This document shows, in pieces, positions 4,693 to 38,204 of a DNA stretch of 51,516 bases. Within the stretch, counting starts at the first letter, position 1; the number at the start of each line of letters is the position of its first letter. Location: contig CAIOGM010000156.1 in NCBI GenBank assembly GCA_903857795.1, forward strand, positions 1 through 51,516, given 5' to 3'. A program made the translations under genes and the position numbers. This DNA comes from an uncultured Geobacter sp. Its GTDB lineage: Bacteria; Desulfobacterota; Desulfuromonadia; Geobacterales; CAIOGM01. The notes below the pieces were generated by a model, which saw only the letters and a list, made by a program, of their open reading frames with translations, was not told the origin of the DNA and searched no databases.

Positions 4693-4723
4693 ACGAACTT
4701 TCCTATATCGCCGGAAAGTTCGT
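4693..4723. repeat. Perfect 11-bp inverted repeat
   Basis: ACGAACTTTCC and GGAAAGTTCGT pair perfectly across a 9-base loop. The element lies in the gap between the 4748-4945 and 4430-4645 genes. There is no T-run on either side, so an operator or RNA processing site is as likely as a terminator. Confidence 0.7.
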
Positions 4724-4747
4724 TTCGCCACACTATTCCCGCTACGT

Positions 4748-9078: not shown

Positions 9079-9099
9079 TCACCCTTCACTCTTCACATT
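9079..9099. repeat. Heptamer repeat (TCACNNT)3
   Basis: TCACCCT, TCACTCT, TCACATT: three 7-bp units at the 3' end of gene A. The reverse complement is the same GTGAAGA-type unit as the chromosomal array at 24047-24081. Confidence 0.65.
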
Positions 9100-15184: not shown

Positions 15185-15203
15185 TGTTACGGGTGCCTCG
15201 ACC

Positions 15204-16196: not shown

Positions 16197-16315
16197 GATG
16201 CCGTCACCCCTCTTTGTGATCGCTTACAAATATTACCCCAAATTACGATTCGCAATCAATATCTTCAATGGCAAAACCACTGCTTTTATTTATATGTACC
16301 AGATGTGAAGCATTG

Positions 16316-19454: not shown

Positions 19455-19483
19455 TTGACTACTATTTTGTGGTTTGCTAGATT
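19455..19483 (+). promoter_or_regulatory. Sigma70-type promoter of the methyltransferase operon
   Basis: TTGACT (19455-19460), a 17-base spacer and TAGATT (19478-19483). The same layout (TTGACA-17-TAGGAT) precedes the nitrogenase-like operon at 29179. Confidence 0.7.
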
Positions 19484-19489
19484 GCCGAC

Positions 19490-19561
19490 TCAAGACGTGC
19501 TGACCAGACAACTGGAGGCCGGGATTGAACCTTTCTTCGTGAAGGGTTCCCCGGCCTTTTT
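19490..19561 (+). ncRNA. Leader RNA A: CCAG/CTGG hairpin joined to an intrinsic terminator
   Basis: Downstream of the promoter, GCTGACCAGACAACTGGAGG (from 19499) forms a short hairpin CCAG-ACAA-CTGG. It is followed at once by a terminator stem GGCCGGG/CCCGGCC (19517-19556), with an inner GAACC/GGTTC stem, and TTTTT. Leader B at 29245 has the same block and design. The terminator stands before the first ribosome site, so this looks like a transcription-attenuation control (riboswitch or protein-dependent antiterminator). I do not recognise the class. Confidence 0.65.
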
Positions 19562-19589
19562 CACGTTCTGCCACCAGGAGGAGCAACGG

Positions 19590-19628
19590 ATGACCGCAGA
19601 ATTGTCGACAGGGCAGGGGAGCCCATGA
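19590..19628 (+). CDS. 12-codon leader ORF
   Basis: ATG at 19590 with a strong AGGAGGAG ribosome site encodes MTAELSTGQGSP and stops at a TGA that overlaps the next ATG (ATGA at 19625). The position relative to the terminator matches that of the first gene of operon B, so ribosomes enter here. It may be a coupling peptide or the relic of a displaced start. Confidence 0.4.
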   Translation: MTAELSTGQGSP

Positions 19629-20698
19629 GTTAAACTTCGTTTACTCCTCTCCAGCGGTTTGCCGCCTATGGCCGGGGAGAGGCCATCGACCGGCTCCCCT
19701 GTGTGCCGATCATCGGCAACGGTTCGGCGCGACTCATCGGCGCCAGGGTCTCGGACTTCCGCGGCAACGGTCCGCTCATCGCCCGGGCCCAGATCGCCGC
19801 CTACCGCTCCTTCGGCTATGACGTGATCCGGGTCTTTACCGACCTCTACCAGATGGCCGAGGCCATGGGGGCAACGGTCCACTATCCCGGGGACGAGACC
19901 GCCTACCTGGATTCGCCGGCCATCACCATGGTGGACGAGATCGGGCGGCTCACGCCGTTGAATCCCCTTGCCGACGGCAACCTTCCTGCCCACCTGGAGG
20001 CGATGCGGCGGGTGGTGGATGCCGTGGGGAGCGAGGTACCGGTTACCGGGGCGGTCACCTGCCCCTTCACCACCGCCTCGTTCCTCATCGGGGCCGAGAC
20101 CTTGGTCCGGCTGACCCTCAAAAATCCGGAAGCGGTGCACCGGCTCTGCGAGGTAGCCCTGGAGGCGGCCCTTCGCTACTGTGAGGCGATTATCGCTACC
20201 GGGGCAACTCCCAGCCTCACCGATCCCATGTCGTCCTCCACCGTCATCAGCCCGCGGCTCTTCCGGGAGTTCTCGCTCCCCTACCTTGCGCGGCTCATCG
20301 ACTATCTCCACCGACGGGGAAAGAGCGTCACCCTTCACATCTGCGGCAAGAGCGCCAAAATCTGGGAGCCGATGGTGGAGGCCGGAGCGGAGTGCCTCAG
20401 CATCGACAACGAGGCGAGTCTGACCGGGGCGAAGCTGACCGTGGGCCACCGGGCCCGGCTCATGGGGAATGTACATCCGTCGGAGATCATGCTCCAGGGG
20501 ACGCCGGAGCAGGTCCGGCGGGCCGTGTTCGCCGGCGTCGCCGAGGCGTGGGATTCACCCGGAGGGTACATCGTCGCCTCCGGGTGCAGCCTCCCCACGG
20601 AGACCCCTTTTGCCAACATCCGGGCCATGATGGACGCCGTCACCGAGATCGGCTGGCCGGTGGATCCGGAAAAACTGCAGGCATCTTTACAGGGATAA
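19625..20698 (+). pseudogene. MtaA/CmuA-type methyltransferase with TAA at codon 3
   Basis: The natural start by family alignment is the ATG at 19625, giving M-S-stop-TSFTPLQRFAAYGRGEAIDR, where TPLQRFAAYGRGEAIDRLPC corresponds to the normal N-terminus. The TAA at 19631 blocks it. The frame is then open to 20698, and the next start is the GTG at 19703 (331 residues, 26 fewer). Zinc ligands are HICG (H212xC214 counted from the GTG) and a later Cys in SGCSLP. First structural gene of the operon. It may be a true nonsense mutation, use of the GTG, or a base-call error. Confidence 0.7.
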
Positions 20699-20788
20699 AC
20701 AGGAAAAACAGGATGAACAGGATGGGCAGGATTACGGCAAAAACGACGTCTAATTTTTCCTCCTGATCATCCTGTATATCCCTGTTAA
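20695..20788. repeat. Inverted pair of 9-bp repeat arrays
   Basis: Four 9-mers ending ACAGG/GCAGG (20695-20730: ATAAACAGG, AAAAACAGG, ATGAACAGG, ATGGGCAGG) face three complementary 9-mers (20762-20788: CCTGATCAT, CCTGTATAT, CCCTGTTAA). RNA from either strand could fold into a long imperfect hairpin between two methyltransferase genes. Confidence 0.7.
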
Positions 20789-20807
20789 TTATTGATAGGA
20801 GGTTTAT

Positions 20808-21830
20808 ATGAGTCTCAGTCCCAAGGAACGTCTGCTCCGGGTCCTCAATCACCAGGGGGTCGACCGGCCGCCGGTCATCTGCACCGGCGGGATGATGAAC
20901 GCCGCCATCGTGGAGGTGATGAACCGGAGCGGCAATCTTCTCCCCGCAGCCCACCACGAGGGGGGTCTCATGGCGGCCCTGGCCGGCGATATCCACCAGG
21001 AGACCGGCTTCGAGAACATCGGCGTCCCTTTCTGCATGACCGTGGAGGCCGAGGTCCTGGGGAGCGAGATCAACTTCGGTACCCTGGCCTGCGAACCGAA
21101 GATCGAACGGGAGCTCTTTTCATCCGCCTCCCAGGTGGTCTACCGGCAGATCCCCGAGATGCTCAAGAGCGGCCGGATCGGCGAGGTGATCCAGGCCGGG
21201 TGGCGTGTGGCGGCCCAGCACCCCGACACCCCGCTCATCGGCAACCTGACCGGTCCGATCAGCACCGCCGCCTCCATCATCGATCCGGTCACCTTCCTGA
21301 AGGAGCTGCGCAAGGAGCCGGAAAACTCCCACCGGGTGCTGGAGTACGTGAGCGACCTCCTCATCGCCTATGCCGGGGAACTGATCAACCACGGCGTCAC
21401 CCTGATCTCCATCGGCGACCCCACCGCCACCGGCGAGATCCTGGGGCCGAAGATGTTTGAGGAGTATGCGGTCCGCTACCTCAACCGGGTCATCGACGGC
21501 ATCCACGGGTTCGGCGCTCCGGTGATCGTCCATATCTGCGGCAAGCTCCAGTCGGTGAAGCACTCCCTGCCGGCGCTTCGCTCCGATGCCATCAGCACCG
21601 ATGCCCTGGTGAACCTGAAGCTTCTCAAGGAGGAGTTCCCGTCTCTCATCACCATGGGGAATGTCAGCACCTTCATGCTGGAGCGGGGCGAGGCGGAGAA
21701 AGTGGCGCGTCACACCCAGGGGCTCATCAGGGACGGCATCAACATCATCTCTCCGGCCTGCGGACTCAGCACCGCGTCCAGCCTGGAGACTATCCGCGCC
21801 ATGACCGACAGCGTGAAGGGGACCCCGTGA
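20808..21830 (+). CDS. MtaA/CmuA-type corrinoid methyltransferase
   Basis: 340 residues, intact, with an AGGAGG ribosome site. A (beta/alpha)8 uroporphyrinogen-decarboxylase fold is indicated by the start MSLSPKERLLRVLNHQGVDR then PPV, and by GNLTGPISTAASIIDP. Zinc ligands are H242xC244 (VHICGK) and a Cys in SPACGLS near residue 313. It is the most divergent of the four copies. The stop overlaps the GTG of the RACE gene by four bases, so both are made together. It likely transfers a methyl group to or from a corrinoid protein; the substrate is unknown. Confidence 0.85.
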   Translation: MSLSPKERLLRVLNHQGVDRPPVICTGGMMNAAIVEVMNRSGNLLPAAHHEGGLMAALAGDIHQETGFENIGVPFCMTVEAEVLGSEINFGTLACEPKIERELFSSASQVVYRQIPEMLKSGRIGEVIQAGWRVAAQHPDTPLIGNLTGPISTAASIIDPVTFLKELRKEPENSHRVLEYVSDLLIAYAGELINHGVTLISIGDPTATGEILGPKMFEEYAVRYLNRVIDGIHGFGAPVIVHICGKLQSVKHSLPALRSDAISTDALVNLKLLKEEFPSLITMGNVSTFMLERGEAEKVARHTQGLIRDGINIISPACGLSTASSLETIRAMTDSVKGTP

Positions 21831-23494
21831 GCCGCGTAACTTTCCGGCCTGATCAGATCGAGATCCAGGTGCCACCCGGGAGCACGCTCCTGGCCGCGGC
21901 CCGGCTGGCCGGCCTGCTCATCGAGGCCCCCTGCAACGGCGCCGGCCACTGCGGCAAGTGCGCCGTCCAGGTGGCGCCGGAGTATTTCGATCGCCTGACC
22001 ATCCCGCCAGACTCCCGTCTCCCGCCGGAGCGGGAGGAGGCTGGCTGGCTCCTCGCCTGCCACGCCCTGGTGCAGGGGGATGTCACGGTCACGATCCCGG
22101 TGCGACGCGAGTGCGGTCTCCAGATCGTCACCTCGGGAGAGAAGCGGCGAAGCGTCGCGCTCTCCCCCTGGATCAGCAAACGGTTCATGCCGGAGAGCTG
22201 CCAGACCTATGTGTATGCCGGGGAACGTCTCCTGACGGTGGAACGGGGGGACAGTGCGTCGGACATCTGCGGGGTCGTCGTGGATATCGGCACCACCACC
22301 CTCGTCGTCGCCCTGGTAGATCTGGTGAGCGGTAAGGAGCTGGCCTCGGATTCGGCCCTCAACCCCCAGAGCCTCCATGCCCAGGATGTCCTCTCGCGAA
22401 TCAGGTTCTGCGCCGAACCGGGGGGGCTGGCCCGGCTGCAGGGCGAGCTGATAGCGGAGCTGAACCGGCTCATTGCCGGGCTTGCCGCCACCGCCGGGGT
22501 CAGCCGCTCGTGGATCTACGAGGCGGTCTTCAGCGGCAACAGCTGCATGCTCCATCTGGCCGCCGGAGTCGATCCCGCACCGTTGGGCAAATATCCGTTT
22601 ACCCCGACCCTTACCGGGGGGGAGCACCTTGAGGCGGCCGCCCTGGGGCTGGCCATTGCGGAGAGGGGGGTCGTCTATCTGCCGCCGGTCATCTCCGCCT
22701 ACGTAGGGGCCGACATCACCGCCGGCATCCTGGCGGCGGAGCTGACAGAACTCTCCGGAACCACCCTGTTCATCGATATCGGCACCAACGGCGAGATGAT
22801 CCTGGCCCGCGACGGACACCTGGCAGCCACCTCCACCGCCGCCGGACCGGCCTTCGAGGGGATGAACATCTCTCACGGGATGCGGGCCGCCGCCGGGGCC
22901 ATCGAAGGGGTCCGGATCACCGCCGAGGGGGAGGTGGAGCTCGACGTCATCGGTGGGGTCGAGGCCACCGGGATCTGTGGCAGCGGGCTCATGGACCTGG
23001 TGGCGGAGCTGGTCAGCTGCGGAGTCGTCGGCGCCAGCGGCAAATTCACCCCGGCGGAGCGGCTCCCCGAGCCGCTGGGGCGCCGGATCGAAAAAGTAAA
23101 CGGCACGACCCTGTTCCGCATTTCCGAAAGAATCTCGTTGAGTCAGAAGGACCTGCGCCAGGTGCAGCTGGCCAAGGGGGCCATCCGGGCCGGGATCGAC
23201 ATCCTCCTGGACGAGCGGGGGGTAACCGCGGCCGGTGTCGATCGGGTCTACATCGCCGGCTCCTTCGGCTTCCACCTCCGGGAGGAGAGCCTGCTGATCC
23301 TGGGGCTCCTGCCACCCGAGTGCCGGGGGAAGGTCTCCTTCCTTGGTAACACCTCCCAGTCGGGGGGAGAGCTGCTCCTCCTCAGCCACCGGCTCCGGGT
23401 GGAGCTGGAACTGCTGACCCCCCTTGTGGCCCGGGTGGAGCTGACCGGTCGGAGCGACTTCGACCGGATATTCATGAAAGCCATGGGGTTCTGA
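21827..23494 (+). CDS. Reductive activator of corrinoid enzymes (RACE), ferredoxin plus ASKHA ATPase
   Basis: 555 residues. The N-terminus is a plant-type 2Fe-2S ferredoxin with C36, C42, C45 and C78 (CNGAGHCGKC...LLAC). A linker leads to an ASKHA ATPase domain with DIGTTT (153-158), DIGTNGEM and GICGSGLMDL. This is the DUF4445/RACE family (RamA/AcsV-like function), which uses ATP to push an electron onto inactive cob(II)alamin and restore cob(I)alamin. The GTG start is coupled to the methyltransferase stop. It is strong evidence that the operon works with a corrinoid, although no corrinoid protein is encoded here. Confidence 0.88.
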   Translation: MSRVTFRPDQIEIQVPPGSTLLAAARLAGLLIEAPCNGAGHCGKCAVQVAPEYFDRLTIPPDSRLPPEREEAGWLLACHALVQGDVTVTIPVRRECGLQIVTSGEKRRSVALSPWISKRFMPESCQTYVYAGERLLTVERGDSASDICGVVVDIGTTTLVVALVDLVSGKELASDSALNPQSLHAQDVLSRIRFCAEPGGLARLQGELIAELNRLIAGLAATAGVSRSWIYEAVFSGNSCMLHLAAGVDPAPLGKYPFTPTLTGGEHLEAAALGLAIAERGVVYLPPVISAYVGADITAGILAAELTELSGTTLFIDIGTNGEMILARDGHLAATSTAAGPAFEGMNISHGMRAAAGAIEGVRITAEGEVELDVIGGVEATGICGSGLMDLVAELVSCGVVGASGKFTPAERLPEPLGRRIEKVNGTTLFRISERISLSQKDLRQVQLAKGAIRAGIDILLDERGVTAAGVDRVYIAGSFGFHLREESLLILGLLPPECRGKVSFLGNTSQSGGELLLLSHRLRVELELLTPLVARVELTGRSDFDRIFMKAMGF

Positions 23495-23511
23495 GCAGGA
23501 GAGGAGGATCT

Positions 23512-24057
23512 ATGCCGCAAACCGCCGTCAGCATCCGCCGTTACGCCAACTTCTTCCGGAAGAGCGGCGCCACCAGGGTTCTGGACTATGGCACCGGGAC
23601 CATGCGCAACGCCCTCTATCTGGCCGGGCAGGGGTTCACGGTCTACGCCGCCGACCTGCCGGAACAGGTGGCGGCGCTCATCCCCTGCCCGGCGGTCCAG
23701 CGGCTGGCCGGACTCATGGATACGGAGCAGCTTGCTATCTGCCGGCTGAATGTGGACCTGGTGGTCTCCACCTACGTCTTCAACATCATCCCCGGGTATG
23801 AGGAGCAGCGCCGCTATGTGGCCAACGCGGTGCGCAACCTCCGTCCCGGCGGCTACCTCCTCATGGAGGTCCGCTGTCCCCGGGAGGGGAGCGTCTGCGG
23901 TGCCGGCTGTTCCCACTACTTCAAGTGCCCCGGTTGCGCCAAGACCTACACCCATACGGAGCTGGACCAGCTGCTGCGCCCCTTTGGGCTCCGGCGGATC
24001 AGCCACTACTATCGCCGCCGGGCGGTGGCCGCCATCTATAAAAAAAGTGAAGAGTGA
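23512..24057 (+). CDS. Small SAM-dependent methyltransferase with Cys cluster
   Basis: 181 residues, ribosome site GGAGAGGAGG. SAM-binding motif I is VLDYGTGTMRNALYLAGQGF (about 23-42), with acidic motif II at YAADLP. Between strands 5 and 6 there are five cysteines (C122, C129, C133, C139, C142; CPREGSVCGAGC then KCPGC) that look like a zinc knuckle. The rest is a plain class I fold. Placed between RACE and a methyltransferase, it may methylate the cofactor, a protein partner or the substrate. The family is not identified beyond class I. Confidence 0.7.
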   Translation: MPQTAVSIRRYANFFRKSGATRVLDYGTGTMRNALYLAGQGFTVYAADLPEQVAALIPCPAVQRLAGLMDTEQLAICRLNVDLVVSTYVFNIIPGYEEQRRYVANAVRNLRPGGYLLMEVRCPREGSVCGAGCSHYFKCPGCAKTYTHTELDQLLRPFGLRRISHYYRRRAVAAIYKKSEE

Positions 24058-24081
24058 AGAGTGAAAGGTGAATTGTGAAAA
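24047..24081. repeat. Heptamer array (GTGAAGA)5
   Basis: GTGAAGA, GTGAAGA, GTGAAAG, GTGAATT, GTGAAAA in perfect 7-bp register, spanning the stop of the SAM methyltransferase and the space before the next gene. The same unit occurs inverted in the prophage at 9079-9099. Confidence 0.75.
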
Positions 24082-24098
24082 AAACAGAGTGGGAAACC

Positions 24099-25151
24099 AT
24101 GACATCGCGGGAACGGACTCTGGCGGCTCTCACCGGTCAACCCTATGACCGGATTCCGGTCAATCTGCTCATGAGCGACTACGCGGCCCGGGTCATCGGG
24201 GTCACCGTGGGGGAGTACCAGCAGTCGGCCAGGCTCATGGCCCGGGGGCAGATCGCCGCGTGGCAGCGGTACGGCATGGACCTGGTGAACACCGGGCCGG
24301 GGCTCACCGGCATTGCCGAGGCCATGGGAAGCCGGCTGACCTTTACCGACAATACCGCCCATGTTGCCGAGTATGCCATCAAGGAGCCGGGGGAGCTGGA
24401 ACGGATGCGGGTTCCTGATCCGGAACGGGACGGTCGGCTACCGCTCTTCCTGGAGGCGGCCGGCATCGTGCTCAGGGAGATCGGCGACCAGGTTCCGGTA
24501 TCACTGACCACATCGGCCCCTTTCACCGTGGCATGCAATCTCCGCGGGACCGAGTTCTTTCTTCGCGATCTCCGGAAAAATCCCGAGTTCGTACACCGTC
24601 TGCTACGGTTGGTCACGGAGAGCGTCATCGCTTTCAGCCGCGCCGCCATCGGCGTGGGGGTGCGGATCGGCCTGGCGGAGCCCACCGCCTCGGGCACCCT
24701 CATCAGCCCCAAGCTCTTCCGGGAGTTTGCCCTGCCGTACCTGAAGGAGGTGGTCACCACGGTGGGAAGCCTGGCCGGGACGAACCCATCCCTCCATATC
24801 TGCGGCAACACCGCCCGGATCTGGGAGGATATGGCGGATACGGGCGCCTCGGTCCTGAGTCTTGATGACGAGGTGGATCTGGCTGAGGCGAGGAGTGCGG
24901 TGGGGGAGCGGGTGGCGCTCCTGGGGAACATCCGCCCCACCAGCGTCATGGTCCTGGGGACGACGGAAGATGTCCGGGCCAATGTTCGGGAGTGTCTGGC
25001 AAAGGGAGCCGGGAATCCGAAAGGGTTCATCCTCGGCATGGGGTGCGCCCTCCCCATCAACACCCCGCCGGAGAACATTCACGCCCTGATGGCTGCCGCC
25101 CGGGAGTACGGCCGCTGGCCCATCGATATGCAAAAGTTGGCGGTAGCCTAA
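24099..25151 (+). CDS. MtaA/CmuA-type corrinoid methyltransferase
   Basis: 350 residues from the ATG at 24099 (MTSRERTLAALTGQPYDRIP); a GTG at 24075 inside the repeat array would add eight residues. Zinc ligands are H233xC235 (LHICGNT) and C316 (GMGCALP). It is closest to the prophage-truncated copy at 14168: both share the VLHICG or SLHICG region, the LPIxTPPEN(I/V)HALMAAAR C-terminus and overall length. It is the last gene of the operon, before a strong convergent terminator. Confidence 0.85.
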   Translation: MTSRERTLAALTGQPYDRIPVNLLMSDYAARVIGVTVGEYQQSARLMARGQIAAWQRYGMDLVNTGPGLTGIAEAMGSRLTFTDNTAHVAEYAIKEPGELERMRVPDPERDGRLPLFLEAAGIVLREIGDQVPVSLTTSAPFTVACNLRGTEFFLRDLRKNPEFVHRLLRLVTESVIAFSRAAIGVGVRIGLAEPTASGTLISPKLFREFALPYLKEVVTTVGSLAGTNPSLHICGNTARIWEDMADTGASVLSLDDEVDLAEARSAVGERVALLGNIRPTSVMVLGTTEDVRANVRECLAKGAGNPKGFILGMGCALPINTPPENIHALMAAAREYGRWPIDMQKLAVA

Positions 25152-27458: not shown

Positions 27459-28886
27459 CTAGAACATGACCTGAACGGCCGCCGTAAGATTCCACGTGTT
27501 TGCCATCTGCAGCCCGTTGACATACTGATAAAGTGGCACCCCTGCCTCGATACCGGCACTGAACGCACCTTTCGTATAGCTGGCGCCGATGAAGGCGTTG
27601 AACAGGTCTCCGCCGTAGTTGTTTGGATCGGCGTCAGGGGACGAGGCCATGACCAGGGATCGAGCGATTTCGCTGTCACGTCCGCTGATCCTGGCGGTGT
27701 TGGTATAGGAGAACCGGACCCAGGTGGCGGCCGGACCCAATGCTCGCTGCAACCAGCTGTTAAGCTTGAGGCTGTCCCCAAGGCTGTAACCGGCGTCATT
27801 ACGTCCAAGGTGATAGGTGTAACCAGCCTGACCGCCCCAGTTCCAGAGTACATCACCGCTGACGGCGGAGTAGGTAAGGGCCGGTTTCAGGTCAAAGGTC
27901 CCTGATCCGAGCTGCATGTCATAGGGTGCACGAAACTTCATCCCCATCATCTCGATTTCCTGCCGGATATCCCCTGTGGGAAGAGTTATTCCGAGACTCC
28001 CATTGAACGATTCACTGATTTTATAGATACCTCTCAACTCCGTATCGGCAAAACCGCTCGTACGCATGGGCGCCTGAGTCATGTTCCCCATGCCATTGTT
28101 CATGTTCATCACCATGTTCATGCTGTTCGCGACGTAGTTTCCCATCCCCATGACGGTTACGCGGTCGGTAACACCGTACATGATCATGAGCATCTGCATA
28201 TCCATGGTCATGTCGGTGGGGGTCATCATATAGCGGGGTTTTCCGGTGGGCGGGCTCACTGCCTCCAGTGACTGCGAGGTAGAGCCATCTTTCAGCCCGT
28301 TCATCCCCATATGCATGAATTTATAGTTGACCATCCACATGTCAGCCGGGTGGGTGTGGTAGATGTCGTCGCCAAAAGCCGGGTTAAACACCATGTTCGC
28401 ACCGGGGCCCATATGCATGCTGTGGTCGTGCCCCGTACTCTTGCCTGCTTCTTCGTAGGCGGCCTTCATGGCCTCGTCGAAGGTGACGATTCGTCCACCG
28501 TGCTGTGTCACAAACTGCCTGGCGGCATCCGCTTTTGTAAACGCCCATTTGGCCTGGGAGGTCATGACCCCGGGCAAGTTGCCGCCCATGACCCAAGTCG
28601 CGGTTCTTGCGTCTGTCAGTTCCGAAGTTGTCTGGTCAGCAACCATGAGCGATTTGACCAGCTTGTAACCGTTCTTCCTGAGCTCTGCAGCGGTGCAGTT
28701 GATGCTGCAGAAGCCCAAAGAGCTGCCGTCTTCATAGAGGATGACCGTACGACTCCGTGCAAAGGTCTGACGATTCATACCGCAGATGTCGCAGGATTTT
28801 GGCGACTCAACGGTCATGTCTGCCGCAGTTGCAGTTCCCGCCATGAGCCCCGCGATTAGCATGACTACAGTGATCCAACGATTCAT
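27459..28886 (-). CDS. NosL domain fused to an outer-membrane barrel-like domain
   Basis: 475 residues from the ATG at 28886 (ribosome site GGGGAGG). A signal (WITVVMLIAGLMAGTATA) precedes a NosL/copper-chaperone domain with CDICGM (32-37) and FCSINC (C60, C64). A His/Met-rich linker (STGHDHSMHMGPGANM, about 150-165) and Met-rich segments (TDMTMDMQMLMIM; SMNMVMNMNNGMGNM) follow. The C-terminal half alternates Gly/aromatic strands and ends in Phe (AAVQVMF), typical of outer-membrane barrels. NosL proteins are normally small lipoproteins that hand Cu(I) to target enzymes. The fusion suggests copper handling at the outer membrane. Confidence 0.75.
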   Translation of the reverse strand: MNRWITVVMLIAGLMAGTATAADMTVESPKSCDICGMNRQTFARSRTVILYEDGSSLGFCSINCTAAELRKNGYKLVKSLMVADQTTSELTDARTATWVMGGNLPGVMTSQAKWAFTKADAARQFVTQHGGRIVTFDEAMKAAYEEAGKSTGHDHSMHMGPGANMVFNPAFGDDIYHTHPADMWMVNYKFMHMGMNGLKDGSTSQSLEAVSPPTGKPRYMMTPTDMTMDMQMLMIMYGVTDRVTVMGMGNYVANSMNMVMNMNNGMGNMTQAPMRTSGFADTELRGIYKISESFNGSLGITLPTGDIRQEIEMMGMKFRAPYDMQLGSGTFDLKPALTYSAVSGDVLWNWGGQAGYTYHLGRNDAGYSLGDSLKLNSWLQRALGPAATWVRFSYTNTARISGRDSEIARSLVMASSPDADPNNYGGDLFNAFIGASYTKGAFSAGIEAGVPLYQYVNGLQMANTWNLTAAVQVMF

Positions 28887-29178
28887 GATGACCTCCCCGC
28901 CGCTGATAATGTTTGGATGAAATGCCGATGCCAGGCATCTGCCGGCACGGTTACCGGAATTCTTGATCATTCGATTTTTCATCCTGTATCCTAAAATAAC
29001 TCGTTGCAGTCAAGAAAAATGTGGTGAGGCGCTCATTTTAACGTTACACTGATAACAAAAATAGTCGAACGGTATAGATTTGGTATCATGCTGTCGAAGC
29101 CGGCTATTTTATCGTGACGCAGAGACGATAGTTGGTTTTCCATATTCTATAGGAAGTATGGACAATATATTTTAGTGC
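28887..29178. other. Divergent intergenic region
   Basis: It separates the NosL fusion gene (minus) from the nitrogenase-like operon (plus). It is AT-rich in the middle (about 28990-29175). I see no gene; the plus-strand promoter begins at 29179. Confidence 0.4.
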
Positions 29179-29686: not shown

Positions 29687-30502
29687 ATGCATGAAATCGC
29701 CATCAACAACGTCTCCTACGCCTACGGCAGCCACGAAGTGCTGCGGGATGTCACCTTCACCGCCGAGGCCGGGGAGTTCATCTGTCTCCTGGGGCCATCG
29801 GGATGCGGCAAGAGCACCCTGCTGCGGCTACTGGCGGGGCTCGACCTGCCGACATCCGGCGGCATCACTCTGGACAGCACTCCCATCACCGGTCCGGGGC
29901 TGGATCGGGGGGTGGTCTTCCAAGATTACTCTCTCTTCCCCTGGATGACCACCGGACAGAACATCGTCCTGGCCCTGGAGCAGGCTTTTCCGGGTAAGAA
30001 GAAGAGCGAGTACCGGGAGATCGCCCAGGGGTATTTGGAGATGGTGGGGCTCGGCTCCGCAGTGGACAAGCTCCCGGGACAGCTCTCCGGCGGAATGCGC
30101 CAGCGGGTCGCCATCGCCCGGGCCTTCTCCATCAATGCGCCGGTGCTCCTCATGGACGAGCCGTTCGGGGCGCTGGACGCCATCACTAGAGCTCGGCTCC
30201 AGGACCTGCTGCTCACCCTCTGGCAGCAGAATGCGGGAGAGCGCAAGACGGTCTTTTTCGTCACCCACGACGTGGAGGAGGCGATCCTCCTGGCCAGCCG
30301 GGTCGTGGTGCTGGGGCTCAACCCCGGCGCCATCCGCGGTGTCTTTACCGTGGAGCTCCCCCGGCCCCGGGTCCGTCAGGAGCTCTATCTCAAGGAGCCG
30401 TTCCTCGTGCTGCGGGACCGGCTGGTGACCCTGCTCCATGAAAACATCCTCTCCGAGCTGGAGGCCGGGGAGACCGTCGCTTCGGTGGGAGAGGGGATAT
30501 GA
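29687..30502 (+). CDS. ABC transporter ATPase (SsuB/TauB/NrtD type)
   Basis: 271 residues. Walker A is GPSGCGKST (K42), followed by the Q-loop [10 protein letters not shown], signature [15 protein letters not shown], Walker [13 protein letters not shown] and the switch His in VTHDVEEA. The [12 protein letters not shown] form is typical of nitrate/sulfonate/taurine importers. Gene start is 12 bases after the NifX-like stop; the stop overlaps the next ATG (ATGA). It energises the permease at 33466. Confidence 0.88.
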
Positions 30503-31269
30503 TCCGACTGCTCGTCACCACCGTTCTCATGGCCACGCTGCTCCTCACCGGCGCGGCGCCGGGTTCCGCTGACCAGGAGAGACTCTTTCGTCTGGGGTAT
30601 CTGGACAACCTGGGGAGCGCTCTCTGCCGGATCGCACAACTTAAAGGACATTTCGCCCAGGAGGGACTGAAGGTGGCACTGGTCCGGTTCGGCGATAGCC
30701 AAGGCGGCCTGGCGGCGCTGGAACAGGGGAACATCGACGCCGGGGCGTTCCTCGTGGGGGAGGGACTTCGGGCCATAGCCCAAGGTAGGGGGTTCCGGTT
30801 CGTGGCCGGCGGGGGGCTCCTCACGGCCACCGGGCCGCTGGCCGAACTGGACAGCAGGGTGCAGCAGCAGCTGGATCTCTCCGGAACCGTGGTCTTCATC
30901 CCTGCAACCGGGCCGGCAACGGAGAAAGAGACCGTCACCCGGCTGACGGCGGCCCTGATCCGCGCCTATGGGAGCAGCCGGCAACAGCCGGATATCCTGC
31001 CCCTCGGACAGAGCGGAGCGGATCAGCCCATCACCCGGTTCGACCCCTCGCCGGAGTATTACCGCCTGGAACGGCTCTGGAAACGGCTGGCTCTTCAGTC
31101 TCCAGCCATGCCGGCCGACTTCCTGGCGAACCATGTGTATGAAGAGATCTACTGCGACGCCCTGGACCGTCTGCTGGAGGACTCACCGGATGACAAGCTG
31201 TTACAAGAGCTCTCCGCCCGGGCCGTCTGCGTTCCCGACTGCTGTCCCAAGAACAAGAACCCGAAGTAA
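30499..31269 (+). CDS. Shortened NMT1-type substrate-binding-like protein
   Basis: 256 residues with a signal peptide (LLVTTVLMATLLLTGAAPGSA). LGYLDNLGSALCRIAQLKGH followed by FAQEGLKVALVRFGDS matches the start of SsuA/NMT1 binding proteins, and SPEYYRLERLWKRLALQSPA resembles the end. Compared with its two neighbours (342 and 346 residues) about 90 residues of the central lobe are missing. The tail carries CVPDCCPK. It may be a truncated binding protein or have taken on a different periplasmic role. Confidence 0.65.
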   Translation: MIRLLVTTVLMATLLLTGAAPGSADQERLFRLGYLDNLGSALCRIAQLKGHFAQEGLKVALVRFGDSQGGLAALEQGNIDAGAFLVGEGLRAIAQGRGFRFVAGGGLLTATGPLAELDSRVQQQLDLSGTVVFIPATGPATEKETVTRLTAALIRAYGSSRQQPDILPLGQSGADQPITRFDPSPEYYRLERLWKRLALQSPAMPADFLANHVYEEIYCDALDRLLEDSPDDKLLQELSARAVCVPDCCPKNKNPK

Positions 31270-31293
31270 CCACACCAGAGGAGGAATCATTGT

Positions 31294-32322
31294 ATGCAAC
31301 GAATCGTAACGTTTGTCCTGTTGTTGTCGCTTTTGGCCACTGTGGCCCTAGCCGCCGACCTGCCGAAACTGCGGGTCGGCTATATCCCCGAACCGGCCCA
31401 CGGCCTCTACTTCGTGGCCCGGGACAAGGGGTATTTCAAGGAGGAAGGGGTCGACGTGGAGCTCTTCCAGTTCGGCAGCGCTGCCGAGGGGATGGCGGCG
31501 CTCAAGGCGGAGAAGCTGGATGTGGGGACCTTCGGCACCACGGCGCCGCTCCTCTTCATCTCCAAGGGGAGCGACTTCACCTTCATCGGCGGGATCATGA
31601 TCGGCGGCCAGGCGATCATCACCCGCCCCGAGCGGCTGGCAGAACTCTCCGGTCATGACCTCAAGGTCTACAAGGGGAAGAAGATCGGCCTGGTCAAACT
31701 CTCCACCGGCGACGTGGTCTTCAAGGGGGCGCTGAAGAGGGCCGGCATCGACTACAAGAAGGAGGTCACTTTCGTGGAGTTCGGCTCGGCCGCGGCGGTG
31801 GTGGAAGCGGTGAAGAAGGGGGCGGTGGACGCCGGCCTGGTCTGGCCACCTCACTTCTCCCTGGCGGAGAAGAATCAGGGGCTCAAGGTGGCCCACTACA
31901 TCGAGGAGTTCTACCCCAAGTACACCTGCTGCCGGATCGTGGCCCCCACGGCCAAGGTGAACGCCGACAAGGAGACCTACCGCCGCTTCCTGGCGGCCCT
32001 GATCCGGGCCTACAAGTTCTACAAGACTAACGAAAACGAGACGGTGGCGATCTATACCAAGTCCCTGAAGATCGACGAGGAGATCATCCGCAACGAGACC
32101 TACGTGAAAAAGGTGGCGGAGTCCAATCCTGATCCGCTCAGGAAGGGGATCCTGGAGTTCTGGCAGCATATTCTCGACGCCGGCTACGTCCCCAACGATT
32201 ACCCCATCGACAAGCATATCAACATCGACATCTACAAGCAGGCGCTGGATTCGGTCATCAAGAAGAGTCCCAAGGACAAGACCTACCAGGAGATGCTGGC
32301 CTTCTACAAGAAGAACAACTGA
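31294..32322 (+). CDS. ABC substrate-binding protein (NMT1/SsuA type)
   Basis: 342 residues. Signal peptide (IVTFVLLLSLLATVALA), then LRVGYIPEPAHGLYFVARDK and KLDVGTFGTTAPLLFISKGS, the ligand-cleft motifs of sulfonate/nitrate/thiamine-precursor binding proteins. An adjacent Cys pair, C212-C213 (YTCCRIVAP), is conserved with the next gene. The ligand cannot be read from the sequence. Its 56% or so likeness by eye to the next protein suggests tandem duplication. Confidence 0.82.
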   Translation: MQRIVTFVLLLSLLATVALAADLPKLRVGYIPEPAHGLYFVARDKGYFKEEGVDVELFQFGSAAEGMAALKAEKLDVGTFGTTAPLLFISKGSDFTFIGGIMIGGQAIITRPERLAELSGHDLKVYKGKKIGLVKLSTGDVVFKGALKRAGIDYKKEVTFVEFGSAAAVVEAVKKGAVDAGLVWPPHFSLAEKNQGLKVAHYIEEFYPKYTCCRIVAPTAKVNADKETYRRFLAALIRAYKFYKTNENETVAIYTKSLKIDEEIIRNETYVKKVAESNPDPLRKGILEFWQHILDAGYVPNDYPIDKHINIDIYKQALDSVIKKSPKDKTYQEMLAFYKKNN

Positions 32323-32335
32323 CGAGGAGACGACC

Positions 32336-33376
32336 ATGAAACGACTATGCGCACTGCTGCTGATGACGCTCTCCCTGGTGGGCTCCGCTCACGCCTCTGA
32401 ACCGGCGAAACTGAAGGCCGGCTATCTCCCCACTTCCGGGCACCTGCTCTATTTCGTGGCCAAGGAGAAAGGGTTCTTCCAGCAGGAAGGGCTGGACGTG
32501 GAGCTGGTCCGCTTCACCAATTCCGGGGAGGGGCTCACCGCCGTCAAGGCGGGGAAGCTGGACGTAGGCTCCTTCGGCACCTCGGCGCCCCTGGCCTTCA
32601 TTGCCAAGGGGGCTGATTTCACTATCTTCGGCGGCCAGATGGGAGAAGGGCACGGCCTCATCGCCAAGCCGGAGAAGGCTGAAAGGTTCAAGGATCTCAA
32701 GAACTTTCGGGGGTCTACCATCGGTGCGGTCCGCCTGGCCACCGGCGACGTGGTCTTTCGGGCCGCACTCCACGATGCGGGGGTCGATTGGAAAAAAGAG
32801 ATGACCATCAAGGAGTTCGATTCGCCGGCCGCAGTCATGGAAGCGGTGAAGAAGGGGACTCTGGATGCCGGTCTGGTCTGGGTTCCCTACTTCACCTTGG
32901 CCGAGAAGCAGGGGCTCGTGGTGGTCAAATATTCGGGAGACGTCATCAAGGGGCATACCTGTTGCCGTCAGGTGGCGCTTACCTCCACCACACGGGATCG
33001 CCGGGCCGACCTGGAGCATTTCCTGACGGCGCTCTTGAAAGCGTACCAGTATTACCTCACCGACAAAAATGGCACCGTGGACGTGGTGGCCAAGTATGTC
33101 CAGATCGACAAGGCCGACCTGCTCAAGGACATCTATGGCGGGCACCTGCTGGTCAGTCCCGATCCCCACAAGCAGTCAGTACTCCAGTTCTGGGAGTTCA
33201 TGAAGAAGGCCGACTATATCACCTCCACCGATTCCATCGACGGTCGGATCAATACCAGGCTCTATGCCAGCGCCCTGGCATCCCTGGAGAAGCGGGAACC
33301 CAAGGAGAAGCTCTGGAGGAACCTGGAGAAAGAGTTCAAGAGCGGTGACGGCGAACTGCATATCAAGGCGCATTAA
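32336..33376 (+). CDS. ABC substrate-binding protein (NMT1/SsuA type), paralogue
   Basis: 346 residues. Signal (LCALLLMTLSLVGSAHA), then LKAGYLPTSGHLLYFVAKEK, GSFGTSAPLAFIAKGADFTI and the Cys pair C209-C210 (HTCCRQVAL). It is 13 bases downstream of the previous binding protein with its own GAGGAG site. With the shortened copy it makes three binding-type proteins for one ATPase and one permease. Confidence 0.82.
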   Translation: MKRLCALLLMTLSLVGSAHASEPAKLKAGYLPTSGHLLYFVAKEKGFFQQEGLDVELVRFTNSGEGLTAVKAGKLDVGSFGTSAPLAFIAKGADFTIFGGQMGEGHGLIAKPEKAERFKDLKNFRGSTIGAVRLATGDVVFRAALHDAGVDWKKEMTIKEFDSPAAVMEAVKKGTLDAGLVWVPYFTLAEKQGLVVVKYSGDVIKGHTCCRQVALTSTTRDRRADLEHFLTALLKAYQYYLTDKNGTVDVVAKYVQIDKADLLKDIYGGHLLVSPDPHKQSVLQFWEFMKKADYITSTDSIDGRINTRLYASALASLEKREPKEKLWRNLEKEFKSGDGELHIKAH

Positions 33377-33386
33377 CGGCTTTCTC

Positions 33387-33410
33387 ACGCAGAGACGCAA
33401 AGACGCAAAG
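33387..33410. repeat. 8-bp repeat (ACGCAAAG)3
   Basis: ACGCAGAG, ACGCAAAG, ACGCAAAG in exact 8-bp register in the 89-bp gap before the permease gene. It is another member of the short tandem repeats found at gene ends here. Confidence 0.7.
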
Positions 33411-33465
33411 AAAGTCACCTATTTTACTCATGCAAAGATAGGCGAATTTAAAAGGAATTTCGGTA

Positions 33466-34371
33466 ATGAAGAACTATCTCCTCAATCTCCAGACACTTCT
33501 GTTCGTTACCCTGCTGGCGGCGCTGCTCTGGCCGTCGGCAGGGGGGACTCCCCGCTATCTTCTCGTCCTGGTCATCATCGTGGAGTTGACAGCGCTGTTG
33601 CGGAGTCGTCTGGCGCAGAGCGCTGCGACCCGCCAGGGGGCTCGTGATGTGGCGAGCATCGTCTTCCTGGTACTCCTTTTCTGGCAGCTGGCCACGGCCC
33701 GCTTCGGACTCCTGGACAAGATGCTCTTTCCCAACCCCGAGTCGGTGTTGAGGATGTTCGTGACGGAACTGCCGGATATGCTCAAGGGGCTGATCAACTC
33801 GCTCATCCTGCTGGCGAGCGGCTTTTCCCTGGCGCTGGGAACCGCGCTGCCGCTGGGGCTGCTGGTGGGGTGGCGGTCGCGGCTCTTTCACGCCGTCAAC
33901 CCCTTCACCAAGGTGATGGGGCCGATCCCCCCCATCGTCTATATTCCCTACGCCATCGCACTCCTTCCCAGTTTCCGGAGCGCCTCCATCTTCATCATCT
34001 TCATCGGGGCCTTCTGGCCGATCTTCATCAATACCGTCAACGGGGTCTTCGACATCCCCAAGGGGCTCCTGGACTCGGCCCGGGTGCTCAACCTGAAGGA
34101 GCGGACCCTGCTCTGGCGGGTCATCCTCCCGGGCGCCATGCCCTCCATCTGCACCGGCTCCACCCTGGGGCTCCTCTTCTCCTTCGTGCTCCTGGCGGCG
34201 GCCGAGCTGATCGGCGCCAATTCGGGTATCGGCTGGTACGTCAAGAATTTCGCCGACTTCGCCGACTACCAGCGGGTCATCGTGGGGATCATCTTCATCG
34301 GCATCGTGGTGACGACGCTAACCTGGGGAACCGAACGGGTGGAAAAGAGGCTGTTGCGGTGGCGCAATTAA
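33466..34371 (+). CDS. ABC transporter permease (SsuC/TauC type)
   Basis: 301 residues with about six or seven hydrophobic segments. The conserved EAA-type loop is recognisable at SARVLNLKERTLLWRVILPG (DSARVLN...LPGAMPSI). The PIPPIVYIPYAIALLPSF segment is typical of the sulfonate/nitrate permease family. There is an extra N-terminal pair of segments of about 60 residues compared with SsuC. It pairs with the ATPase at 29687. Confidence 0.85.
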   Translation: MKNYLLNLQTLLFVTLLAALLWPSAGGTPRYLLVLVIIVELTALLRSRLAQSAATRQGARDVASIVFLVLLFWQLATARFGLLDKMLFPNPESVLRMFVTELPDMLKGLINSLILLASGFSLALGTALPLGLLVGWRSRLFHAVNPFTKVMGPIPPIVYIPYAIALLPSFRSASIFIIFIGAFWPIFINTVNGVFDIPKGLLDSARVLNLKERTLLWRVILPGAMPSICTGSTLGLLFSFVLLAAAELIGANSGIGWYVKNFADFADYQRVIVGIIFIGIVVTTLTWGTERVEKRLLRWRN

Positions 34372-34388: not shown

Positions 34389-35921
34389 ATGAGTTACATC
34401 GATCTGAAATCGGCCCCCAAGCGCGAAGAGCGGCTGAAGGCATGCATCGCCCACGGCGGGAGCATCTGCGACCTGGGGGGGAAGGGGAAGAAGTCGTGTC
34501 TCGTGGACGACGGGGAGCGGGGTTTTACCCAAGGCTCCATCTGCCTGCTCCTGCCGGCCCTGGCCATGCTCAACACCCTACCCGACAACGTGGTCCTGAT
34601 GCACAGCGCCATCGGCTGCGGCACCTGCACCCACTCCCAGAACGCCAATGTCCGCTTCGGCGGCAACGTCCGGTGGGGAGCGGTGAAGGACGGGATCTGG
34701 CTCTCCACGGCGCTCAACGAGACCGACGTCATCGGCGGCGGTGAAGAGAAGCTGGAACAGGCGATCATCGAGGCGGATGAACGGTATAAGCCGTTCAGCA
34801 TCTCCGTGGTCTCCGGCTGCGTCCCCGGGATCATCGGCGACGACATCGACAACGTGGTGAAGCAGCTTCAGCCCCGGGTGAAGGCGAAACTCCTGCCGGT
34901 CCACTGTGAGGGGTTCAAGACCAAGATCTGGGCCACAGCCTACGATGCGGTCTATCACTCCATCGGCCGGACGCTGCTGGAGAGCAATGGGGCGCAAGAG
35001 ACGGTAACAGGGGAGGGCGAACCGGGCCTCACCCCCTACCAGGGGCTGGAGCGGCTCCCCCGGACGGTGAACCTGATGAACGTCTCGTCCATGGGGCGGG
35101 TGGATGAGCTGGAGCTGACGCGGCTCCTGACTTCCCTGGGGCTGGAGGTCAACGTCTTCCCGGTCTTCGCCCACCCGGCGGGGATGGTGACGGCGACCCA
35201 GGCGGCCCTGTCGGTGAGCACCTGCCCGACCCACGACGACTACTTCCTCACCTATCTGGAAGAGCGCTTCGGGGTGCCGTACCTCCTGAAGCATATGCCC
35301 ATCGGCATCGAGAACAGTGGGCTCTGGCTGCGGGATGTCGCCCGTCATTTTGGCCAGGAGGCGCAGGCGGAGGCGCTCATCCGCCATGAGGAGGAGCAAC
35401 TGCAGGCGGCCCTGGCCGAGTTTCGCCCCCTCTTTGCCGGCAAGACGGTCTTTGTCAGCGCCGGCGAGTTCCGCGCCCTGGCCACGGCCCGTCTCCTGGA
35501 GGAGCTGGGGTTCAGGGTCACCGGCATCCGCTCCTTCCACCACGACGAGTTCGCCCAAGGGGAGTACGACAAGCTGGCGGCCAGCGCCCAGGAGGATTAC
35601 CCCATCGATATCGCCAATGTCCAGCCTTTCGAGGAGGCGAACCTTCTGAAACGGATCAAGCCGGATCTCTTCCTCGGTCACGCCAACGGCAACGCCACCG
35701 CGGCCAAGCTGGGGATAGCGACCCATGTCATCTACAACACCGGCCTGGCCTATATCGGCTACCGGGGAGCCTACGACCTGGCCCGGCGGCTGGCCCGGCA
35801 ACTGAAGAACCCCAGTTACAACCGGCGGCTGGCGGAGAACCTCCGGCTCCCCTACTCTGATACGTGGTATGAAGCACCCCCTTTCAGTTACATCAACAGC
35901 CGTGGAGGCGCTACCCAATGA
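34389..35921 (+). CDS. NifD-like nitrogenase component 1 homologue
   Basis: 510 residues from the ATG at 34389 (AGGAGAAACT site). P-cluster ligands are present: C52 (GSICLLL), C77 (AIGCGTC) and C144 (SGCVPGIIGDDI). C279 (VSTCPTHDDYF) aligns with the FeMo-co ligand Cys275 of NifD. The position of His442 is Ile456 (LAYIGYRGA), and the N2-reduction residues around Gln191/His195 are replaced. Extra cysteines C19, C27, C37 and C80 lie at the N-terminus. It is therefore a nitrogenase-like reductase, not a nitrogenase. The stop overlaps the next ATG. Known relatives include methylthio-alkane reductase, CfbD and DPOR/COR subunits; the subgroup is not certain. Confidence 0.85.
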   Translation: MSYIDLKSAPKREERLKACIAHGGSICDLGGKGKKSCLVDDGERGFTQGSICLLLPALAMLNTLPDNVVLMHSAIGCGTCTHSQNANVRFGGNVRWGAVKDGIWLSTALNETDVIGGGEEKLEQAIIEADERYKPFSISVVSGCVPGIIGDDIDNVVKQLQPRVKAKLLPVHCEGFKTKIWATAYDAVYHSIGRTLLESNGAQETVTGEGEPGLTPYQGLERLPRTVNLMNVSSMGRVDELELTRLLTSLGLEVNVFPVFAHPAGMVTATQAALSVSTCPTHDDYFLTYLEERFGVPYLLKHMPIGIENSGLWLRDVARHFGQEAQAEALIRHEEEQLQAALAEFRPLFAGKTVFVSAGEFRALATARLLEELGFRVTGIRSFHHDEFAQGEYDKLAASAQEDYPIDIANVQPFEEANLLKRIKPDLFLGHANGNATAAKLGIATHVIYNTGLAYIGYRGAYDLARRLARQLKNPSYNRRLAENLRLPYSDTWYEAPPFSYINSRGGATQ

Positions 35922-37261
35922 GTGAGCATTTCATCGAACGGTCCCGTTATCTCTGCGCTCTGGGAGGTGCGGCGGCCACGGTCACCGCCATCCCTGGGGC
36001 CATCCCGATCCTCCACTCCGCATCCGGCTGTGCCGGCAACTTTGCCTGGACTCAGAACGGCGGCAGCGGCCTCCAGGTTGGTGGTTACTGCGGGGCGCTG
36101 ACCACCCCCAGCTCCAACATCCAGGAGCATGAGGTAGTTTTCGGCGGCGACGAGCGGCTCCGGGAGCAGGTAGCTTCCACCCTGAAGGTCATGGATGGGG
36201 AACTCTTCGTCGTTCTCACCGGCTGTGTCCCCGAGATAATAGGGGACGACATCAAGAGCGTGGTGGCCGGGTTCAGCTCTCAAGGGGCGGCCATCATCGG
36301 CGCCGAGACCGGCGGTTTCCGGGGAAACTCCTACTGGGGGTACGACCTGGTGCTTCAGGCCCTGTTCCGGGATTTCGTGGAGAAGGCGCCGGAGAAGGAG
36401 CAGCTGAAGGTCAACCTCTGGGGGATCGCTCCCTACGCCGACCCGTTCTGGCGGGGGAACCTGGAAGGGGTGCGCCATCTCCTGGAACGGCTCGGTCTGG
36501 CGGTGAACAGCTTCTTCACCACCGGCGACTCACTGGACGGTATCCGGCTGGCCGGCAGCGCGGCACTAAACATCGTGGTATCGGAACTCTACGGTCTGGG
36601 CGCCGCCACTCTGGCCCAGGAGCGGCACGGCATCCCGTTCCTGAGCCACCCCCTGCCAATAGGCCCCACCGCCAGCGAGGCGTTTCTCCTGGCCGTCGCC
36701 GGGAAGCTCGGCCTGAGTGAGGAGCGCGTGAACGCGGTCATCGCGCGGGAAAAGGAGGAGTACTTCAAGCTGCTGGAACCGCTGACCGACTGCTGGAACG
36801 ACCTGGACTTGCAGCGGTACGCCGTGGTGGTGGGGGACGCCAACTACGCCGGGGCGTTGACCCGGTTCCTGGCCGATGACCTGGGGTGGCTCCCGGAGTT
36901 GACCGTCTGCACCGACCCGCTTGGGGAGGATGAGCGGCGACGGCTGACCGAGGGGCTGGCCAACCTGGCTTCGGGATACGAGGCGAACCTGCGGTTCGAG
37001 ACCGACGCCAGCCAGGTGATCCATCACCTCAGGCAGAAGTGGCCGGCCGCCGACGGCTCTACCTACCACAATGCCTTCAGTCCGGCCTTCGTGGTGGGGA
37101 GTTCCCTGGAACGGGAGCTGGCCCAGAGCCTGGGCGCCGGGCACCTCTCCGTCAGTTTTCCCGTTGCCAACCGGGCGATCATCGACCGTGGCTATACCGG
37201 GTTCCGGGGGGGCCTGCGTCTCACTGAAGACCTGATCAGCGCCATCATAGTTGGCAGATGA
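35918..37261 (+). CDS. NifK-like nitrogenase component 1 homologue
   Basis: 447 residues. It carries the three P-cluster-type cysteines C13 (YLCALGG), C38 (ASGCAGNF) and C103 (TGCVPEIIGDDI). It lacks the roughly 60-residue N-terminal extension of Mo-nitrogenase NifK and starts almost directly at the first ligand, as in Vnf/Anf and nitrogenase-like proteins. Translation is coupled to the NifD-like gene (ATGA). The two should form a heterotetramer with P-cluster-type centres. Confidence 0.85.
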   Translation: MSEHFIERSRYLCALGGAAATVTAIPGAIPILHSASGCAGNFAWTQNGGSGLQVGGYCGALTTPSSNIQEHEVVFGGDERLREQVASTLKVMDGELFVVLTGCVPEIIGDDIKSVVAGFSSQGAAIIGAETGGFRGNSYWGYDLVLQALFRDFVEKAPEKEQLKVNLWGIAPYADPFWRGNLEGVRHLLERLGLAVNSFFTTGDSLDGIRLAGSAALNIVVSELYGLGAATLAQERHGIPFLSHPLPIGPTASEAFLLAVAGKLGLSEERVNAVIAREKEEYFKLLEPLTDCWNDLDLQRYAVVVGDANYAGALTRFLADDLGWLPELTVCTDPLGEDERRRLTEGLANLASGYEANLRFETDASQVIHHLRQKWPAADGSTYHNAFSPAFVVGSSLERELAQSLGAGHLSVSFPVANRAIIDRGYTGFRGGLRLTEDLISAIIVGR

Positions 37262-37340: not shown

Positions 37341-38204
37341 ATGACAAGGCAGATAGCACTATACGGCGGGGGAGGGGTCGGGGTCTCCACCGTTGCGGCC
37401 AACATCAGCGCGGCGCTGGCTGACGACGGGATGCGGGTACTGCGTGTTGGCTGCGATTCCCGTCACGGCTCCTTCGGCGCTCTCGATGCTGCGGTCAGCG
37501 GCCCCACGGTCATGGATCTGCTTCGGCAGCGGCAACCGCTGAAGCTGGAGGAGTTGCTCATTCAGGGGTATAAGGGAAACTGCTGTATTGAACTGGGAGA
37601 CCCGTTTTATCACGGCGTCTGCCCGTCCCAGGCCATTGCCCAGGCGTTGACCGCCTTGGGGGAACTCGACCTGGAAGGAAAGCTCAAGCCGGAGCTGATC
37701 CTCTACGATATCCCGTGGGAGGCCGGCTCTGCCGGTTTTTTGGATCCGCTGAAGAGATCTCCGGTTCAGCAGGTATTTGTGGTTATATCCCCTGATTTCA
37801 TGTCGCTCTCCATGGCTAACAGTATCCTGAAGAGAGTGGCGGAACGTGATGTCTCCGCGCAACCACCGACGGTAGGTTTCATCGCCAACGGTCTGACCAA
37901 CCCCTTTGAGGAGTCGTTTGTCGCCGATTTCGCCCGGACGCTCCAGGCAAGAGTCGCAACGGTCATCCCCCGGTCGCTGGTGGTGAGACAGTGCGAACTC
38001 TACGGCATGAGCGTGATCGAAGGGGCGGCGCTCTCCAACCAAGCGTCAATATATCGCCGTTTGGCCAGGCAGATAGTCGGTGGCGACGCCTCCGGCGCTT
38101 ATGTCCCCCTGGCGGTCGACGCGCTCAAGCGGTGGGCCCGGAACTGGGGCGAGTTGATCTTCGAGATGGAGAACGGGCTTATCAGCGATGGGGCATCCAT
38201 CTGA
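37341..38204 (+). CDS. NifH-like protein with degenerate P-loop and lost Fe-S cysteine
   Basis: 287 residues from the ATG at 37341 (ribosome site AGAGGA); the open frame extends upstream to 37251. The start QIALYGGGGVGVSTVAANIS aligns with the NifH P-loop (YGKGGIGKST): both lysines are gone (G10, V15). GCDSRHGS replaces GCDPKADS (Asp43 lost). C94 (GVCPSQ) fits Cys97, but Cys132 is S130 (EAGSAGFLDP). It thus lacks residues essential for ATP hydrolysis and for the bridging [4Fe-4S] cluster. It may be a structural, regulatory or assembly subunit, with another Fe protein as electron donor. The frame is open and well preserved, so this is divergence, not decay. Confidence 0.85.
   Translation: MTRQIALYGGGGVGVSTVAANISAALADDGMRVLRVGCDSRHGSFGALDAAVSGPTVMDLLRQRQPLKLEELLIQGYKGNCCIELGDPFYHGVCPSQAIAQALTALGELDLEGKLKPELILYDIPWEAGSAGFLDPLKRSPVQQVFVVISPDFMSLSMANSILKRVAERDVSAQPPTVGFIANGLTNPFEESFVADFARTLQARVATVIPRSLVVRQCELYGMSVIEGAALSNQASIYRRLARQIVGGDASGAYVPLAVDALKRWARNWGELIFEMENGLISDGASI

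Follow-up and report, generated by a model that had tools for sequence, protein, structure and literature searches.

In textbooks, Fe proteins are described as electron donors driven by ATP. MarH, the Fe protein of the methylthio-alkane reductase of R. rubrum, has a canonical P-loop and Cys97/Cys133 (PMC12552129). IsrH, encoded with its partners as IsrBHDK in R. capsulatus, retains both cysteines along with the ATP motif and is required together with IsrDK, and a single P-cluster cysteine has been reported as a signature of IsrD (PMC11423573). In addition, group IV-A nitrogenase-like genes, together with CysK and MetY, have been reported to accompany type I mlp gene clusters (PMC10418091). In the open-access literature, we found no description of NifH-like proteins lacking the P-loop lysine.

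Here we analyzed a NifH homologue (H*; 37341-38204, plus strand) encoded in a 51,516-nucleotide contig of an uncultured Geobacter sp. (GenBank assembly GCA_903857795.1, contig CAIOGM010000156.1), the whole of which is referred to as the window. The host genome (G000) comprises 4.05 Mb in 179 contigs, and the window contig is C156. On one strand (plus), an SsuABC/NrtD-like ABC transporter with three binding proteins (29687-34371) is followed by D, K and H*. Based on NCBIfam, the transporter consists of a nitrate/taurine/sulfonate-type ATPase (29687-30502), a divergent SsuA/NMT1-like substrate-binding protein (30499-31269, also matched by Pfam), two SsuA-family substrate-binding proteins (31294-32322 and 32336-33376) and an NtrB/SsuC-type permease (33466-34371). 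For both D and K, the best match among solved structures was MarDK. D (34389-35921), a MarD-like component-1 alpha subunit, keeps Cys52, Cys77 and Cys144 at the P-cluster places and Cys279 at the cofactor place, and K (35918-37261), the MarK-like beta subunit, keeps three P-cluster cysteines in the alignment, a combination that marks a MarDK-like component 1 and bears out the first-pass annotation, which had stated that the NifDK-like partners retain these cysteines. The pair was ruled out as an isethionate reductase, since IsrD has one P-cluster cysteine and the window D has three. Further upstream, in the neighbourhood of the operon and on the same strand, is a cluster resembling a type-I MGC (14168-25151; compared with PMC10418091), which contains four URO-D/MtaA-CmuA-family methyltransferases (beginning at 14168, 19703, 20808 and 24075), a RACE-like corrinoid activator (21827-23494) and a SAM methyltransferase (23512-24057). 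An Rfam search gave no match within the operon. Elsewhere in the window, Rfam identified a type II hammerhead ribozyme (4653-4730, minus strand, 50.6 bits) inside what appears by eye to be a Mu-like prophage (MuA-like 9093-11576 and MuB-like 8257-9006, minus strand), and a 507-aa protein composed of a NosL domain and a long remainder is encoded at 27459-28982 (minus strand).

H* is a true member of the NifH family. Its frame is intact over 287 codons with zero internal stops, as had been noted before, whereas the minus strand of the same interval has stops, and a Shine-Dalgarno-like AGAGGAAC lies ahead of the ATG. Pfam Fer4_NifH matches it with 147.5 bits, and its score lies far under the NCBIfam nifH and CfbC cut-offs. 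The AlphaFold model (pLDDT 83) has the NifH fold, with MarH of PDB 9fmg as its best fold match (TM 0.86); the weakest parts of the model include switch I (block mean 52) and the switch II/cluster loops (59). The translation shows LYGGGGVGVSTVAAN where NifH has GKGGIGKST, so that both lysines of the P-loop (GGGGVGVST, residues 9-17; 37365-37391) are gone and the glycines, Ser16 and Thr17 are kept. Switch I is likewise degenerate (GCDSRHGSF, 37449-37475; VGCDSRHGSF against GCDPKADST in NifH), with Asp39 kept and Asp43 gone. Cys94 (37620-37622; context GVCPSQA), the counterpart of NifH Cys97, is kept. In switch II (37707-37730), DIPWEAGS stands against DVLGDVVC, and comparison of YDIPWEAGSAGF with NifH YDVLGDVVCGGF places Ser130 at the position of Cys132; Asp125 is kept and Asp129 is replaced by Glu. 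Alignment with the canonical NifH of the same genome (contig C26) gave K10 to G, K15 to V, D43 to G, R100 to Q, G128 to W, D129 to E and C132 to S, with S16, D39, C97, D125 and N185 unchanged. Among the features of catalytic Fe proteins (NifH/MarH/IsrH/BchL/CfbC), H* thus has the fold and the Fer4_NifH domain; it lacks the Walker A GKGGxGKS/T with both lysines, the Cys97 and Cys132 pair that holds one [4Fe-4S] per dimer, and the docking Arg100 (Gln in H*, Arg in 33 of 33 canonical proteins). The codons are GGG at K10, GTC at K15 and TCT at C132. Because each lysine loss needs several base changes, a single sequencing error cannot explain H*, and this source of the losses was ruled out. Translation, codons and alignment therefore agree with the first-pass annotation on the missing lysines, the serine and the retained cysteine, and add the changes at Asp43 (Gly), Gly128 (Trp), Asp129 (Glu) and Arg100 (Gln).

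The host genome holds a canonical reductase for D-K. Besides NifH, it encodes one further canonical Fe protein (Hc) on contig C169 where, from reading translations, Hc adjoins a radical SAM gene, a MarDK-like pair and O-acetylhomoserine sulfhydrylases. Sixteen component-1 matches were found in this genome, including the window pair, a D-K pair on C96 whose D is 89% identical to the window D, and a K on C149. Contigs C96 and C169, each ending in a partial CysK gene, jointly give the operon order of the congener G003 (L095), namely permease, D, K, CysK, radical SAM and Hc; the window carries a second D-K copy, with H* behind it. In an Oryzomonas-type genome (G125, L205), Hc itself heads the orthologous operon (Hc, ABC transporter, D, K). 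D is present at 71-90% identity in about 25 genomes of the order, which are largely the genomes with Hc at an identity of at least 76%; the exceptions are G117 and G122 (D without a full Hc) and G002 (Hc without D), and Hc of G062 is cut by a contig end. Synteny thus suggests that the window D-K is most likely served in trans by Hc, in line with the earlier proposal that its electrons come from another Fe protein. Judged by its residues and by the Hc linkage, H* is probably not the electron donor of the adjacent pair, and this idea was rejected. Two further observations concern these proteins: several non-Nif component-1 pairs of the host genome (contigs C156, C96, C149, C169 and C80) seem to have one non-Nif canonical Fe protein in common, and Hc of G117 (L204:13007-13663, plus strand), as assembled, lacks about 75 internal residues, in frame, spanning both cluster cysteines.

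A second H* copy of the host genome lies on contig C91, where its C-terminal 114 residues, 82% identical to window H*, are preserved at a contig end. It adjoins a cysteine desulfurase and CysK and is tail-to-tail near CysK, in contrast with the window copy, which sits behind the ABC transporter, D and K.

We then searched for H* relatives in all 141 genomes of the order as well as in the class (277 genomes). They occurred in about 30 genomes, every one within the same order, and the named records belong to Geobacter, Oryzomonas and Geobacteraceae/Desulfuromonadales; as far as searched, the family is confined to one bacterial order, that of the Geobacter relatives. Of the top 80 loci, drawn from 84,980 species, 66 had GKGG[IV]GKST and Cys132. 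Thirteen of the remaining 14 came from Geobacter-type records, three of which differed merely by Thr for Ser16, and the other was a Methanosarcinales record whose canonical sequence was missed by the pattern. A plasmid search yielded ordinary NifH-type matches only, all below 60% identity. Outside the order, canonical relatives of H* precede D-K pairs whose D keeps one of the three P-cluster cysteines; since this is the IsrD signature, these relatives are of the IsrH type. Our trees place the origin of the H* family next to the IsrH-type proteins, which form its nearest canonical clade, and it therefore appears to have derived from the isethionate reductase lineage, although H* has a long branch (0.92) and its exact place is for this reason unsure. 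H* does not fall within IsrH, which is paired with an IsrD carrying a single P-cluster cysteine; it belongs to a derived clade next to IsrH, which is recognized by the absence of Arg100 and by the C-terminal motifs VRQxELYGxTVIE...YRRLA...W...W.

Residues were counted in 33 canonical H proteins and in 29 family members, which comprised 23 of a CysK type and 6 of a CysA type (tree row L032 stands outside these counts and the change-count tree). K10, K15, D43, C97, R100, G128, D129, C132 and R140 were invariant in all 33 canonical proteins. The CysK-type members had R100 in none of 23, C97 and C132 in 10 each, K15 in 16 and D129 in 11; the CysA-type members kept both cysteines, with K15 in one and R100 in two of six. 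Over the whole family, the docking Arg100 was absent in 27 of 29 and Arg140 in 20 of 29. On a tree built without the scored columns, the residues changed state at least 8 (K15), 7 (D129), 6 (D43), 4 (C132) and 3 (C97) times, counts that cannot separate gain from loss. G9, G12, G14, T17, D123, N183, P210 and several C-terminal residues were invariant in 29 of 29. Window H* was the most strongly degenerate member (both lysines, D43, G128, D129 and C132) and the only one with a basic residue at neither lysine place; in G035, these places hold Arg10 and Thr15. Since several members retain every lysine and cysteine, the family may ancestrally have had a redox role. NifH is itself involved in cofactor assembly, and H* might similarly carry Fe-S or sulfur, with one Cys94 per subunit at the dimer axis and other ligands holding a cluster for Fe-S or cofactor assembly; the retention of Cys94 and the cysteine desulfurase and CysK beside the C91 copy would fit such a carrier. 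However, Cys97 and Cys132 are each absent in 13 of 23 CysK-type relatives. The family thus has no conserved requirement for a cluster, and we regard a carrier function as very improbable. Separately, Geobacter contains a second cysteine-less NifH-like group (ps2; GKSGVGKS, GYDxHRSS, no Cys97 or Cys132), found at L093:9859-10698 (minus strand), L206:9900-10742, L209:8160-9005 and L212:8973-9815 (all plus strand), between a sulfate-binding protein and either Hc/radical SAM or CysTWA, including loci without Hc.

The genomic setting was derived from an all-against-all neighbourhood comparison, with genes identified by Pfam and NCBIfam; many genomes are MAGs, and the neighbourhoods are partly cut by contig ends. 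The commonest order was Rrf2 - CysK - H, often followed by a SAM methyltransferase, a rhodanese or an O-acetylhomoserine sulfhydrylase. A second order, Rrf2 - Sbp - CysT - CysW - CysA - H, was observed in G032, G073 and G085; the CysA-type locus of G074 also carries CysK, and a contig end truncates that of G059. The Rrf2 protein beside CysK (L059:11990-12487, minus strand, and relatives) has four conserved cysteines (C-x8-C-x2-C-x5-C), and most Rrf2-CysK-H operons show a strong palindromic motif, CTATNNNNNNNATAG, about 20-28 bases ahead of the Rrf2 start codon. Near the window operon, the best match to this motif (14.4 bits) was below the maxima of shuffled windows (17), and no significant copy was found there. 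Most family members have no D-K pair nearby, and eight genomes with a member (G007, which is a single contig, G032, G037, G059, G086, G094, G115 and G116) have only four component-1 matches each, which by score and placement are nifDKEN; these genomes are nearly complete.

This distribution bears on the possibility that H* is an inert partner of D-K, which would dock on the pair or form a heterodimer with Hc and protect, gate or assemble the enzyme. H* does follow K at a distance of 79 nt, no site resembling a terminator was found in this gap, and in several Geobacter genomes the gene immediately next to Hc encodes the cysteine-less ps2 protein. Nevertheless, the family has largely lost Arg100 and Arg140, most members lack a D-K neighbour, several genomes have no component 1 except nif, and ps2 is likewise present at loci in which Hc was not found (G043 and G055). 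We thus consider an inert-partner role unlikely. The first-pass annotation had suggested, among others, a docking role tied to D-K, which finds no support in a family found mostly in CysK and sulfate-transporter operons, lacking Arg100 in 27 of 29 members and present in genomes whose sole component 1 is nifDKEN.

Selection was estimated as dN/dS by the NG86 method, which averages over sites. Between window H* and the C91 copy, the value was 0.154 (110 aa, dS 0.65), a comparison that covers the C-terminal part of the protein and not the degenerate P-loop, since the C91 copy has lost its N-terminal half to the contig end. For D and K, the copies in the same genome gave 0.10-0.13, and pairs of relatives lacking both cysteines gave 0.206 (G098/G103), 0.197 (G127/G086) and 0.315 (G003/G002). 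No internal stop codon was found in any family member. Window H* alone could still be a paralogue decaying after duplication within a functional family, as might be expected from its degeneration, the strongest in the family, its branch of 0.92 and its nearest kin (47-49% identity; also G027/G039 in the tree), which keep the lysines and both cysteines. Against such decay are the open frame with a plausible ribosome-binding site, a dN/dS close to that of D and K, and the conservation of the glycines, Asp125, Asn185 and the C-terminal motifs, which make it improbable. It had been proposed earlier that close homologues with a canonical P-loop would turn this copy into a decaying pseudogene: the nearest kin do keep one, so that this applies in part, but the conclusion does not follow from them, because residues were lost again and again in separate branches that are under purifying selection. 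A lone pseudogene is also disfavoured by dN/dS together with the recurrent losses on the tree. The earlier view of H* as a pseudo-Fe-protein thus holds, and dN/dS suggests that it is maintained by selection. The sequences show that this Fe-protein-fold family is under purifying selection and can dispense with docking, ATPase and cluster residues; its members are probably functional pseudoenzymes rather than wreckage.

Taken together, we consider it rather likely that H* is a maintained pseudoenzyme from a family that split off from IsrH and was recruited to sulfur operons, acting as a non-redox regulator or adaptor, with D-K served by Hc. According to this model, the family would have separated from IsrH, the reductase subunit of isethionate-reductase-type enzymes, and entered Rrf2-linked sulfate/cysteine assimilation operons in which Fe-protein chemistry was no longer required. 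The component-1 docking arginine would have been lost early, and the Walker lysine, switch and cluster residues repeatedly later, while the fold, the glycine cradle of the P-loop, Asp125, Asn185 and the C-terminal third remained unchanged. The family would no longer work as a reductase, and its gene neighbourhood, the shared sulfur-operon setting, points to a possible subsequent role in sulfur assimilation. Retention of the P-loop glycines, Asp125 and Asn185 predicts nucleotide binding without efficient hydrolysis; H* may work as a dimer without redox function, binding an adenine nucleotide or a sulfur metabolite and showing minimal hydrolysis, if any. The most economical reading would make it a regulator or adaptor in sulfur assimilation. 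In the host genome, one copy stands by CysK and the cysteine desulfurase, and window H* is best seen as a duplicate, placed behind the second D-K operon. More tentatively, and on balance doubtfully, this branch of the Fe-protein superfamily could have turned into a family of signalling pseudoenzymes, non-hydrolysing sensors or adaptors controlling sulfate/cysteine assimilation, which might, for example, sense APS, PAPS or a similar adenine nucleotide and act on CysK or the four-cysteine Rrf2.

The repeated discarding of otherwise invariant residues under selection suggests that this fold has been put to a second use, apart from electron transfer. The family offers natural variants with which the functions of nucleotide, cluster and docking could be told apart. 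For metal-reducing bacteria, it suggests a new component of sulfur metabolism that can be tested. It also implies that 'nifH' matches in Geobacter-rich samples can be sulfur-assimilation proteins.

With regard to known systems, the pseudo-nifH sequences (PMC8597730) resemble the H* family in being NifH homologues without their own nifDK, but 'pseudo' there means outside nitrogen fixation, and loss of the P-loop lysine or cluster cysteine is not their topic. Type I mlp clusters have in common with the present system the URO-D methyltransferases, the RACE-like activator, the MarDK-like genes and nearby CysK/MetY, whereas the examined passages of that report mention no degenerate NifH-like member (PMC10418091). 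MarH (PDB 9fmg; PMC12552129) shares the NifH fold and is the best solved match to H* by sequence (172 bits) as well as by fold, but it has the canonical P-loop and Cys97/Cys133, and H* has neither lysine nor the second cysteine. Finally, IsrH (PMC11423573) is the nearest canonical clade and shares the sulfonate/sulfur context of the family, whereas the ATP motif and cysteines that it keeps are lost in H*, whose neighbouring D, unlike IsrD, has three P-cluster cysteines.
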